NCBI GenBank assembly: GCA_030595525.1
Contig: JAUVDD010000016.1
Coordinates: 1 to 14,348 of the forward strand
DNA from: Puniceicoccales bacterium
GTDB lineage: Bacteria; Verrucomicrobiota; Verrucomicrobiia; Opitutales; Oceanipulchritudinaceae
Length of the DNA stretch: 14,348 nt
Direction of reading: 5' to 3'
Position 1 is the stretch's first letter. The number at the start of each line of letters is the position of its first letter. Shown here one piece after another: positions 1 through 2,947 of the stretch. Made by a program: the position numbers and the translations under genes. Below the pieces are notes generated by a model. That model was given only the letters and a program-made list of their open reading frames with translations, was not told the origin of the DNA and did not search any database.

Positions 1-758
1 AAGGCCATTTCAGGCTCGATCATCCAGAATTCGCTGGCATGGCGTGAAGTGTTGGAATTCTCTGCCCGAAAAGTCGGACCGAAAGTATATACGTCGCCAT
101 GCGATAAGGCGAAGATCTCTGCTTCCAATTGGCCACTCACCGTCAAATAAGTGGGACGGCCAAAGAAGTCTTGTTCGTAATCGATCTTTCCATCCTCTGT
201 TTTTGGCGGATTTACCGGATCCAGGGTACTGACACGGAACATTTCTCCGGCGCCTTCACAGTCGCTCGCTGTTATCAGTGGAGTATGCACATACAGGAAT
301 CCCCTTTCCTGGAAAAATTGATGTATGGCGTAGGCAAGTCGGGATCTCACACGGAAAACCGCTCCAAACAGGTTAGATCGTGGGCGCAAATGGGAGATTT
401 CGCGAAGATACTCCAAACTATGTCGCTTCTTTTGCAGCGGATAGTCGTCGTCGGCACCACCGATCAGCTCAATATTCGCGGCCTTGACTTCCCACGTCTG
501 GCCCTTTCCGAGGCTTTCAACCAATTCCCCAGCCACTCGAACTGCTGATCCAGTCGTGTAATCATGAATCTTGTCATATCCTTCAATTCCCGCATCGACG
601 ATCACCTGAAGGTTCGCCAGACAGCTGCCATCGTTGATTTCCATGAAGGAAAATTCCTTCGAATCGCGACGAGTTCTTACCCATCCGTAAATCTCTACTT
701 GGGCATGGGATTCAACTGATCCCAGTGCTTCCTTAACTTTTAATCTTTTAAGGGTCAT
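1..758 (-). CDS. asnS: Asparaginyl-tRNA synthetase (5' part, runs off the left edge)
   Basis: This gene encodes the cytoplasmic class II synthetase that charges tRNA-Asn. About 252 N-terminal codons are present and the rest lies beyond base 1. Residues about 15-105 form the OB-fold anticodon-binding domain ([21 protein letters not shown]). The class II catalytic domain begins near residue 120 with [14 protein letters not shown], followed by [27 protein letters not shown]. The segment [37 protein letters not shown], read in pieces, is diagnostic: the GQL and [11 protein letters not shown] blocks are AsnS motifs, whereas an AspRS would differ here. The ATG at 756-758 gives the usual family N-terminus ([12 protein letters not shown]). 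No Shine-Dalgarno sequence is evident before it. A strong terminator for the upstream RNA ends only 43 nt away, so asnS must use a promoter within that gap or depend on read-through. Confidence 0.95.
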
Positions 759-801: not shown

Positions 802-839
802 AAAAAAAAGGACCCCGCATCTTTTCAGATGCGGAGCCC
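802..839 (-). terminator. Intrinsic terminator ending the large non-coding RNA
   Basis: On the minus strand a 13-bp stem (839-827 with 822-810, two G-U wobbles) is capped by a GAAA tetraloop and followed at once by eight T residues (809-802). This is a textbook Rho-independent terminator. It abuts the 3' strand of the closing helix of the upstream structured RNA (848-840), so it fixes that RNA's 3' end. It lies just upstream of asnS and is oriented toward it. Confidence 0.9.
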
Positions 840-1704
840 TAAATTGTGGGACGGCGCTCGCCACACGCTCTTTCCCGGTTGCTGACATTTGGCGCTCGTG
901 ATCTCTCATGGCTGCCAGCTCCCCGACGCTATTCCCCGAGGTTCTTCGGAGTTCCGGCCTCGTAGCAGGGCCGTAGGCGGAATTACTTCCCCCTATTTCG
1001 GGAGTGAGGCCTCTCAGCACGGATCATCTCGTAGTTGCGAACCACAAGCTTGCCGTACCCGCTAAGGATATCGCTGTAATCCGGTATCCTTACCGTTTTT
1101 CCCCAAGGTCGGCTCCTCTTTAATAATTGGACGTTTGCCTTGGGTTACGGGTCTGACCTCTTACCTCTCGGAGATGTGTTCAGTTTACAGGCTGTTGACT
1201 CGGTTTTTCGAGCCCACTGCTTCTCAAAGGAAACCTGTGGCTGTTGTCATGTACTCGGCCACTTGCTTCCCTGTTTGTCCGGACGTTTTCGCTGCACCGA
1301 CGTTATACGGCCGCTTTTGGTGAGAATGACCCTCACCCGCTTCGTTCAAACAGACGAACTGCACGGTAACATCTCTTGACCTTCCAGGTCACCGCGTTGG
1401 TTCCTCCAAGGACGCAAATCCTTCGGATTCCCTAACTTAATCAGCTGGTTTTGCGTGGTTCCATTTCTGGACCCGCCAGCCAATTTCCGGTCGTGTGCTT
1501 TCACAATTCAGAATGGTGTGACCCACTCCGGCACCGACGGTGAAAAATGCCTCAAGTCGTTGGGCTAAACTGAGAATTTCCTCGGAAATACTCAACCCCC
1601 GTTTCATGAGGAGCCAGATTCATTCGATCAATCTGACAGTTCCCCGGTTGCCCGGGATTATCCTGGGGCTTTCTGAGATAGAATGCCCTTTCTTTCAAAG
1701 AACT
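802..1704 (-). ncRNA. Large structured non-coding RNA, about 900 nt, family not recognised
   Basis: No credible ORF exists here, but the minus strand folds densely. All pairings were read by eye. The ends pair: 1510-1502 (TGAATTGTG) with 848-840, nine pairs, directly followed inward by 1497-1492 (CACACG) with 867-862. Inside lie: 1481-1476 with 1448-1443, enclosing a GAAA-capped hairpin (1474-1457); 1396-1388 with 1370-1362 (nine pairs); 1337-1332 with 1324-1319; 1150-1147 with 1096-1093, stacked near 1144-1138 with 1108-1102; 1092-1085 with 1070-1063 (eight perfect pairs); 1048-1040 with 1036-1028 (nine pairs); 1011-1006 with 961-956; 951-946 with 939-934; and 919-913 with 887-881. A 5' domain adds hairpins at 1657-1642 (GCAA loop), 1635-1615 and 1593-1572 (CGAG loop). 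A promoter at 1740-1711 and a terminator at 839-802 delimit the transcript. The tmRNA tRNA-like end, RNase P core motifs, SRP motif and intron cores were looked for and not found. Function is unknown. The size resembles ornate large RNAs such as GOLLD, ROOL and OLE, but I cannot assign it to any of them. Confidence 0.75.
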
Positions 1705-1710
1705 GAGGAT

Positions 1711-1740
1711 ATTATGCTCTCAATGAATTCCACCTGTCAA
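1711..1740 (-). promoter_or_regulatory. Sigma70-type promoter of the large non-coding RNA
   Basis: Reading the minus strand, a perfect -35 hexamer TTGACA (1740-1735) is followed after 18 nt by CATAAT (1716-1711), five of six matches to the -10 consensus. Transcription would start near 1704, just before the first hairpins of the structured RNA. No ORF begins downstream before the terminator at 839-802, which supports its being the promoter of a stand-alone RNA. Confidence 0.7.
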
Positions 1741-1765: not shown

Positions 1766-1881
1766 TGTGAATAACTTCTCTTTTTCAGTCATCATAATCT
1801 GAGACAATTGCACAAGTTCCTCATTGATATGTAGATACAAACCACTGCAAATGTGAATAACTTTGTGAATACGGTGAATAA
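1766..1881. promoter_or_regulatory. Cluster of DnaA-box-like 9-mers beside an AT-rich stretch
   Basis: Two exact matches to the DnaA box TTATNCACA occur, read on the minus strand as TTATTCACA: 1766-1774 and 1852-1860. Two one-mismatch copies follow in the same orientation: 1864-1872 (GTATTCACA) and 1873-1881 (TTATTCACC). The first two share 12 identical bases (TGTGAATAACTT on the plus strand). Bases 1886-1975 beyond them are conspicuously AT-rich, rich in A-runs, and contain a TTACCC...GGGTAA inverted repeat (1922-1927, 1945-1950). This could be a replication origin, a DnaA titration site or a DnaA-controlled regulatory region for the RNA promoter at 1711-1740. No dnaA gene is in the window, and an origin function is inference. 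Confidence 0.45.
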
Positions 1882-1975: not shown

Positions 1976-2947
1976 TCAATCCTCAGGTTCAGCGTCCTCG
2001 TTGATCATCCGGACTTCTTCAAGAATCGCCTTAATAATCAGAATGGCCTCACCAAAGTCAGCTTCCTGGCTCTTGTTATCAAAGGAGATATTCTTCTCAC
2101 GCGGTTCATATATCCAGCTACCCCACTCATCACTGAGGATATTCAAGGCCTTTATTGCAGAACCCAGCAGCTTCACATCAAGCCGTCGCAACTCATAGAG
2201 CTTGGACCGTTCCCATTCCTGCAGGATCCGTTCCAGCTCAGCTATGGCGATGCGGTCCGCCGGTGGCTGAAGTTCCAGTCCTTCAATTTTCCTGGTATAG
2301 CGATCCTCGAATGTTTCCACAAACTGGGAGAAGGCTCGGGTCTGTTCATAGAGCTCCTTATGCTTTGCGATCTCAAGTGAGAGCTGATCGATCCTGCGGA
2401 ATCTCACCCAGGCATCCGGTCCAAGGGTTAGATTTGCATCCAATACTTGCTTATACATATCCGCCTGGGATTTCACTTCCTCCATCATTGCTGAATCCAG
2501 TTGGCGCATCTGATTGAGAATATCAGCAGGAATCCGTCCCTCATACTGTACAAAACGATCTGTCTTTCCGCGTTCCTGACGATCAGCGATCTCCTCCTTG
2601 ATGCGTTCGGCTTCGCGTAATTGCTGCAATCTCACAGCTTCCCTTGACGCCTTGAGTTCTTCACTGGCCACCAGATCGCTCCGGGCTTGATGTTCCCGGG
2701 CAACAATCAGGGGAACAACTAACATGCAACCAATCAACGCCATGACGCCCCATGATCCCAAAACCGGATCACTCTTCTTGTTCAGTGAGAAAAACAAAAT
2801 AAACACCACCGATAGGAAGGCAACGAACGCTGGCCAGACATCAGACATGAAACTTCCCTGAATCCAGGAAACATCCGGATACCATCCAGCAATCAGATGG
2901 TAACCATATGCAAACAGCAGACAGATTAATAACAGGATGATTCTCAT
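1976..2947 (-). CDS. Unknown membrane protein with three N-terminal helices and a charged helical cytoplasmic domain
   Basis: I do not recognise a family for this 323-residue product. Hydrophobic segments lie at residues about 3-20, 37-55 and 66-84. A strongly charged, probably coiled-coil stretch follows (about 86-130, with runs such as LREAERIKEEIADRQER). A long, mostly helical hydrophilic domain then extends to an acidic C-terminus (NEDAEPED). There are no cysteine clusters or recognisable catalytic motifs. Its ATG overlaps the tatD stop codon (ATGA), so the two are almost certainly cotranscribed and translationally coupled. The architecture suggests a membrane-anchored scaffold or envelope protein, but that is only inference from shape. 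Confidence 0.8.
   Translation of the reverse strand: MRIILLLICLLFAYGYHLIAGWYPDVSWIQGSFMSDVWPAFVAFLSVVFILFFSLNKKSDPVLGSWGVMALIGCMLVVPLIVAREHQARSDLVASEELKASREAVRLQQLREAERIKEEIADRQERGKTDRFVQYEGRIPADILNQMRQLDSAMMEEVKSQADMYKQVLDANLTLGPDAWVRFRRIDQLSLEIAKHKELYEQTRAFSQFVETFEDRYTRKIEGLELQPPADRIAIAELERILQEWERSKLYELRRLDVKLLGSAIKALNILSDEWGSWIYEPREKNISFDNKSQEADFGEAILIIKAILEEVRMINEDAEPED

Follow-up and report, generated by a model that had tools for sequence, protein, structure and literature searches.

The window, by which we mean the whole stretch of 14,348 nucleotides analysed here, contains a 1.2-kb gap between asnS (3-758, minus strand) and an open reading frame at 1976-2947 (minus strand). No listed ORF inside the gap exceeds 79 amino acids, in agreement with an earlier note on this DNA, which had found the gap before asnS to lack a credible ORF. 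The same note had described the gap as holding an unrecognised structured RNA, its strongest candidate for something new, had proposed an Rfam scan, and had stated that a strong hit to a known family would remove the novelty. The whole window was scanned with cmscan, and positions 853-1663 (minus strand) gave a full-length match to Rfam RF03079, the MISL RNA, covering model positions 1-751 of 751 with 356 bits against a gathering cut-off of 274.6 (E 1.4e-106). Nowhere in the window did another Rfam family reach its gathering score; within the gap the runner-up, from another family, had an E-value of 0.22 and lay far below its cut-off. The label "unrecognised" was wrong, because the RNA is RF03079. 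Both the score over the full model and the conserved helices with covariation, seen in 93 representatives, place the RNA in this family. Judged by its sequence, the region is a MISL RNA gene, a member of an already catalogued but functionally unexplained family of the Verrucomicrobiota. One copy was found in its own genome, which is 84% complete. MISL was reportedly first described by Weinberg et al. 2017. Among the literature matches listed, Ribonanza (PMC10925082) was the only real mention of MISL RNA, the excerpt of that paper describing chemical mapping of a piece of one MISL RNA. The features of the locus are the following.

3-758, minus strand: asnS (asparagine--tRNA ligase; NCBIfam NF003037, TIGR00457), the downstream neighbour, not part of the RNA
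802-840, minus strand: intrinsic terminator (stem 840-809, then a T-run), common to homologues
853-1663, minus strand: MISL RNA core, complete model 1-751 (cmscan), single copy in its own genome
1074-1079, minus strand: 3' arm of long-range helix PK-B, TTACAG
1171-1177, minus strand: 3' arm of long-range helix PK-A, ACATCTC
1185-1190, minus strand: 5' arm of PK-B, CTGTAA (partner 1079-1074, within a hairpin loop of the Rfam structure; covariation)
1369-1375, minus strand: 5' arm of PK-A, GAGATGT (partner 1177-1171; column pairing, 7 perfect pairs in the window)
1642-1657, minus strand: first MISL hairpin, with a GCAA tetraloop
1666-1688, minus strand: helix P0 (1688-1685/1669-1666), from the 5' hairpin to the Rfam model (minimum-energy fold; covariation)
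1689-1703, minus strand: 5' hairpin GTTCTTTGAAAGAAA, boxA-like, outside the Rfam model
1711-1740, minus strand: sigma-70-like promoter, TTGACA-18-CATAAT
1766-1774, minus strand: DnaA-box-like site TTATTCACA, upstream of the promoter (motif search)
1852-1872, plus strand: DnaA-box-like pair TGTGAATAA-3 bp-TGTGAATAC (9 and 8 of 9 letters), with a further GTGAATAAC at 1874

The minus-strand consensus promoter noted earlier is present at 1740-1711 and agrees with the consensus in 11 of 12 letters. Promoter-like sites are not rare by chance, two being found against 1.3 expected in shuffles, but the promoter of the window gains weight because a locus of the same genus (L010) has TTGACA-18-CATACT at the equivalent place. 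A promoter of the TTGAC type was seen in just 21 of 122 homologues, and therefore other lineages must use other promoters. The textbook terminator also held up: its stem has 14 pairs, 1088 of 1220 cells are paired with 240 double changes in the covariation count over the homologues, and a terminator-like site lies just past the model in 118 of 126 homologues. We infer that this copy is transcribed from about 1704 to about 802 on the minus strand, and that MISL is a stand-alone transcription unit which would yield a non-coding RNA of some 900 nt, running from its own promoter to an intrinsic terminator. The earlier picture, a large and ornate non-coding RNA framed by a promoter and a terminator of its own, is supported as far as sequence evidence goes.

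The conservation of the fold was assessed on 152 MISL loci (L001-L022 and L044-L173), which were reduced to 126 distinct near-full-length homologues and further to 93 diverse representatives with flanks; counts of boxes and of the 5' hairpin cover the 122 or 120 of these 126 homologues whose upstream sequence was long enough. In the window, strand 1704-809 folds better than each of 20 dinucleotide shuffles (z -7.3). Covariation had been proposed earlier as the test of the helices listed in the note. The terminator and the GNRA hairpin 1657-1642 proved to be conserved, while a second GNRA hairpin at 1474-1457 and a helix joining the two ends of the core did not. Hairpin 1657-1642 is the first hairpin of the Rfam structure and is paired in 542 of 556 cells. 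The hairpin at 1474-1457 is present in the window with a GAAA loop and one G.A mismatch, but it is an insertion relative to the Rfam model, with 105 of 223 filled cells paired, and was rejected as a family feature in favour of a lineage insertion. The end-joining helix (1510-1502/848-840) can form in the window with nine pairs, one of them G-U. Most homologues are gapped there, letters being present on both sides in 395 of 837 cells, and 245 of these 395 pair (0.62; slid controls 0.23-0.48). By eye, the alignment shows the helix broken in two loci of the same genus (L010 and L016), and after this test on 93 homologues it was rejected as conserved.

Outside the Rfam model, the 5' hairpin sits at the expected transcript start and reads GTTC-N-TTGA-N-A-GAAC in most homologues, with a perfect GTTC/GAAC stem in 106 of 122. 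It is backed by conservation and not by covariation, because the stem is almost invariant (363 of 372 stem cells paired). Helix P0 is paired in 409 of 465 cells with 119 double changes (slid controls 0.14-0.37); in the window it is shifted by one base from the alignment columns, as in the minimum-energy fold. The register of the P0, PK-A and PK-B columns was set from slid columns and the covariation list, after which the pairs were recounted. When six-pair segments were filtered for 90% pairing and 20 double changes, 29 passed among 365,740 with enough letters, and PK-B was the sole one spanning more than 100 nt. It shows 54 double changes and pairs in 530 of 552 cells, against 0.20-0.41 for slid controls. 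PK-A has less behind it than PK-B. Its two halves are paired in 266 and 278 of 279 cells each, with slid controls reaching 0.65 and 0.50, and the window is shifted by one base against the counted columns in the first half. The bulged PK-A appears only as a three-pair segment, one of seven passing among 326,808 long-range ones; two of the other six belong to PK-B, and four fit no helix and look like chance. Neither long-range helix is in the nested structure printed by cmscan, which cannot show pseudoknots. The boxA-like 5' hairpin and P0 outside the model, together with the two long-range helices beyond its printed structure, are what this analysis adds. The RNA is predicted to fold into many hairpins that are tied together by at least two long-range helices.

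The 5' hairpin resembles the boxA (NusB/NusE) of rRNA operons. The MISL of the window begins with GTTCTTTGAAA, and this start is shared with the rRNA leaders of three genomes (G001, G005 and G008). At nine positions, chosen after looking, all nine agreed in 113 of 122 homologues, compared with 1 of 122 in the reversed control. The hairpin differs from the rRNA boxA in that the MISL version stands in a hairpin at the very 5' end of the RNA and in that position 5 is often C or A: of 122 homologues, 70 have C there, 32 have T and 20 have A, against T in each of the eight rRNA leaders scored. Many homologues read GTTCCTTGATAGAAC, and in one genome (G079) this is the MISL version and GCTCTTTGAAAT that of the rRNA leader. 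The comparison is based on eight rRNA leaders and one miss, a ninth leader (G302) in which no boxA-like word was found in 420 nt; of the underlying searches, one recovered the 16S in 4 of 16 genomes, a second its start in 9 of 30, and a third, for a word inside the 16S, gave 0 of 15. Aside from position 5 the loop of the hairpin is fixed. Position 5 itself seems to be a lineage marker, being A outside the order and T in the family of the window (e.g., L048, L054 and L057). For the gamma-proteobacteria, the boxA consensus is given as GYTCTTTAANA in an excerpt of PMC5725501. It is a possibility that the 5' hairpin acts as a boxA antitermination element.

Upstream of the promoter, DnaA-like boxes are over-represented before MISL, an observation on sequence that is new with this analysis. 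Exact TTATNCACA occurs in the 260-nt stretch before the model in 48 of 120 homologues, at a density of 2.12 per kb, compared with 0.092 when all loci are taken together (these stretches included). The word TTATTCAC is found in 96 of these 120 stretches and two unrelated control words in 2 and 0. In the stretches of at most 150 nt that precede the 5' hairpin, exact TTATNCACA was present in 42 of 120 and absent in 78, whereas 300 permuted-letter motifs gave a mean of 0.62 in the same stretches; the best two reached 19 and 13, and the one reaching 13 resembles a variant of the DnaA box. The boxes were noticed after the fact, and a degenerate form of the box, whose definition was drawn up with the data in view, occurs at least once in 107 and at least twice in 72 of 120 homologues (2.4% and 0.1% in mononucleotide shuffles); it is absent in 13. 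Box counts are not independent, because the homologues are related.

The spacings of the degenerate boxes cluster at 33, 11 and 22 bp, and multiples of 11 account for 81 of 149 pairs. Most boxes lie 50-120 nt before the 5' end of the RNA, at loci with different neighbours. In the window they have no divergent gene to serve, because the upstream ORF is on the same strand. The own, incomplete genome (G000) carries TTATTCACA 15 times, two of them at MISL, compared with 10 for the reversed control, and shows the tandem pattern only before MISL. Among relatives the tandem pattern gave 23 matches in 13 of 20 genomes, compared with 7 for the reversed control. Only three of the 23 lie shortly before MISL, of which G000 has two and G077 one, and the pattern is also carried by four genomes lacking MISL. 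The tandem boxes elsewhere are as a DnaA regulon with many members would show, and MISL is not singled out. Such boxes were located near genes other than MISL at L354:5324-5343, L356:5276-5295 and L355:4143-4162. Two MISL-less genomes (G013 and G006) have a DnaA-like pair 11 bp apart near a gene that by eye looks like miaA, and in another genome (G036) a distance of about 4 kb separates such a pair, which is close to other genes, from MISL.

DnaA control of MISL is most likely, because DnaA-box-like sites precede the promoter; DnaA would set MISL transcription and couple it to replication or growth state. Both DnaA binding and the direction of the control are presumptive, being read from the sites. 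A different regulator, with boxes that resemble DnaA boxes by chance, is a possibility that we consider improbable though not negligible. The DnaA assignment is itself made from sequence, and many homologues have degenerate boxes only, which leaves some room for it; what weighs against it is the sequence before dnaA. This stretch is the classical place of DnaA autoregulation. Of 13 genomes offering at least 130 nt upstream of the dnaA match, 10 have the exact 9-mer TGTGAATAA there, at a distance of 57-63 bp. We take TTATTCACA to be a DnaA box in these bacteria because of this placement. A further genome (G318) has 8 of 9 box letters at -69 before dnaA and the full word at -352, and in two (G195 and G302) no box word was found within 400 nt. 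Before 16S rRNA the word occurs in one of nine leaders of 900 nt. The sites at MISL are over-represented and identical to those at dnaA, as would be expected of a DnaA-controlled promoter, with 78 of 120 homologues lacking the exact box. Among the matches listed, literature on DnaA boxes with Verrucomicrobia or non-coding RNA had nothing on MISL.

The boxes could also be functional as an array in their own right, a DnaA titration site similar to datA, with MISL merely sharing the locus. The regular spacings of 11, 22 and 33 bp would suit such an array, and so would its distance from dnaA: in ten genomes of one or two contigs, taken as circles, MISL lies 0.16-2.2 Mb away, so that the array is not the dnaA-side origin. 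A location of MISL at that origin was rejected on the same distances. Against this, the boxes keep mostly to 50-120 nt before the RNA at loci whose neighbours differ, as promoter elements would, and the RNA itself is structurally conserved; we regard this explanation as unlikely. Control of the MISL promoter by DnaA is the reading that we retain.

MISL is patchily distributed. At E-values of at most 0.001 it was found in 22 of 89 genomes of relatives, in 68 of 286 for the class and in 31 of 387 for the phylum, and over the cut-off in 18 of 89, 63 of 286 and 28 of 387, respectively; the filters were strict, and the genome sets share members. Two of the 31 phylum genomes belong to other classes, and none of 14 control genomes has MISL. 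A conserved 20-base MISL word occurred in 102 stretches in 84,980 species genomes. All 102 contigs also match the MISL profile, and among the matches listed (80 of 102 titles) 80 of 80 are Verrucomicrobiota. In the family of the window 8 of 17 genomes carry MISL, and this patchy presence means that many relatives manage without it. Two genomes (G229 and G334) have two copies each, on different contigs.

The neighbourhood was compared in 124 contexts with up to three ORFs a side, some genomes being represented twice and some contexts being cut by contig ends. No protein family accompanies MISL throughout these contexts. In 48 of them, many titled Opitutaceae or Opitutae, the upstream divergent neighbour falls into one cluster, of which the one tested member is an HrpB helicase (TIGR01970, 611 bits). 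A cluster of 25 contexts has TypA downstream (one sequence, by eye), and other neighbours, also read by eye, include a glutamyl-Q-like synthetase and an SNF2 helicase. The ORF at 1976-2947 encodes 323 amino acids with what appears by eye to be an N-terminal membrane part, and no NCBIfam family was found for it; its relatives adjoin MISL in four contexts, all of the own genus. Since the neighbours change, MISL probably acts in trans and not as a cis leader. It would most likely do so as a compact structured RNA, probably in an RNA-protein particle, and not as a leader of asnS.

In three RNA-phage (levivirus) contigs of IMG/VR, which stem from different samples, MISL stands in sense orientation ahead of the phage genes (L174:1-476, L251:1-317 and L298:1-806), cut at a different MISL position in each. 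L174 has 476 nt that share 89% identity with the MISL of L140, from an Opitutaceae MAG, and that end where a related phage contig without MISL (L219) begins; its maturation protein matches PF03863 with an E-value of 7.1e-28. In L251, about 290 nt of MISL at 81% identity are followed by the maturation protein and the replicase (PF03863, PF03431). L298 contains nearly all of MISL (up to position 806 of the 5357 of the contig), followed by a weak match to PF03863 (7.6e-5, below the cut-off) and a replicase (PF03431, E 3e-42). L251 was the only MISL-profile match among 80 relatives fetched by protein. L174 and L298 allow no rate, because both were found by MISL words. Rfam gave no gathering-score match in the 80 contigs, MISL included, because the MISL piece is short, and the same applied to L174. 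Another phage-labelled contig of 15,111 bases (L299:5-165) has the first 165 nt or so of MISL, directly followed by a DUF3383 gene. Further viral-contig matches, at 25 loci (L193-L217) and L300, were discarded as chance, having no MISL profile match at E-values up to 10.

To our knowledge, RNA phages have no DNA stage, and therefore the contigs derive from RNA and MISL existed as RNA. The family thus exists as RNA in nature, although the fusions may be cDNA chimeras. Their plainest reading is template switching by reverse transcriptase, or assembly chimerism with an abundant RNA; true RNA recombination may also have occurred. If genuine, the fusions would tie RNA phages to verrucomicrobial hosts. 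A more far-reaching proposal joins them to the upstream sites: MISL would be coupled to replication, with the DnaA array setting its level, the boxA-like element providing antitermination and the abundant RNA truly recombining with RNA phages of these bacteria, which would leave MISL attached ahead of the phage genes. Antitermination would then keep RNA polymerase on an untranslated transcript of 900 nt. We give this combination a slim chance.

Large RNAs such as GOLLD and ROOL are often borne by phages or other elements. The patchy distribution of MISL, its changing neighbours and the pieces in phage contigs could be taken to mean that MISL, too, is an RNA of phages or mobile elements. The window RNA, however, had no blastn match among 72,556 records of plasmids or 50,697 of phages, on which basis a plasmid or DNA-phage origin was rejected. 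None of ten scanned window proteins belongs to a phage family, and the phage contigs comprise the three RNA phages, with MISL at the contig end as fits chimeras, and one other (L299). We consider an element-borne origin quite improbable.

We give very little credence to the idea that the RNA regulates asnS in cis, as a leader or attenuator of the T-box or another type, with the terminator as its switch. The arrangement invites this idea, as in the window and in two relatives (G001 and G002) the RNA lies upstream of asnS on the same strand and the terminator ends it just before the gene. asnS itself is cut by the window edge, and its best matches (NF003037 and TIGR00457) were below cut-off because of this. 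Across the 124 contexts, however, asnS is among the nearest ORFs in four, from three genomes of the own genus, the fourth genus member (G003) falling outside the asnS-neighbour cluster; elsewhere other genes adjoin MISL, among them those for HrpB, TypA, the synthetase and the SNF2 helicase. The Rfam scan gave no match to a T-box or other riboswitch; neither a leader-family match nor a conserved linkage was found, and the terminator goes with the RNA family (118 of 126 homologues). The asnS leader was rejected on its changing neighbourhoods. As for a new class of structured RNA, the proposal made at first, the RNA is indeed large, well folded and conserved, but a full-length RF03079 match 81 bits over the cut-off leaves that explanation practically no chance.

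Our preferred reading, which we consider reasonably probable, is that the locus is a MISL gene which has a promoter and a terminator of its own and encodes a trans-acting structured RNA of about 900 nt, whose transcription would be set by DnaA. Supported outright are the family membership, the conserved structure, the 5' hairpin and terminator, the lack of conserved neighbours and the over-represented boxes. The RNA is a new member of a known family, and with it the gene becomes better defined and gains a first regulatory lead. What large bacterial RNAs such as MISL do is difficult to establish, and for MISL no conserved neighbour offers a hint; the recurrent DnaA-like boxes would be a first, testable lead to its physiology and control.

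Compared with the double boxes that E. coli DnaA prefers, pairs 2 or 3 bp apart according to an excerpt of PMC11317965, the pair in the window has the same 3-bp gap, and 20 same-strand degenerate pairs of homologues, at a spacing of 11 bp, consist of two 9-mers with a 2-bp gap. The boxes of MISL differ in that TTATTCACA is commonest here and not TTATCCACA, and in that the commonest pair is on opposite strands at 33 bp, unlike the E. coli arrangement. With RF03079 itself the window copy shares the complete model 1-751, the conserved hairpins, the GAGAGGUAAGAGG..AGACCCGUA core and the 3' end. It differs by insertions, such as that at 1474-1457, and the 5' hairpin, P0, the terminator, the long-range helices and the DnaA-like boxes go beyond the model or the nested structure printed for it. 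With the longer 5' end, the terminator and the two long-range helices, a construct of about 900 nt can be defined that should serve structure determination better than the 751-position model; for ROOL and GOLLD, cryo-EM structures exist (excerpt of PMC13324647). The comparison with GOLLD, ROOL and OLE drawn in the earlier note stands for the general kind, a large RNA without known biochemistry, and fails as membership, the window RNA having no Rfam match to any of the three. MISL further differs from them in having no plasmid or phage blastn record and in its restriction to Verrucomicrobiota among the matches listed (80 of 102). What it has in common with these RNAs is the size class (OLE is given as about 600 nt), an ornate conserved structure and, for MISL presumably, its own transcription unit.
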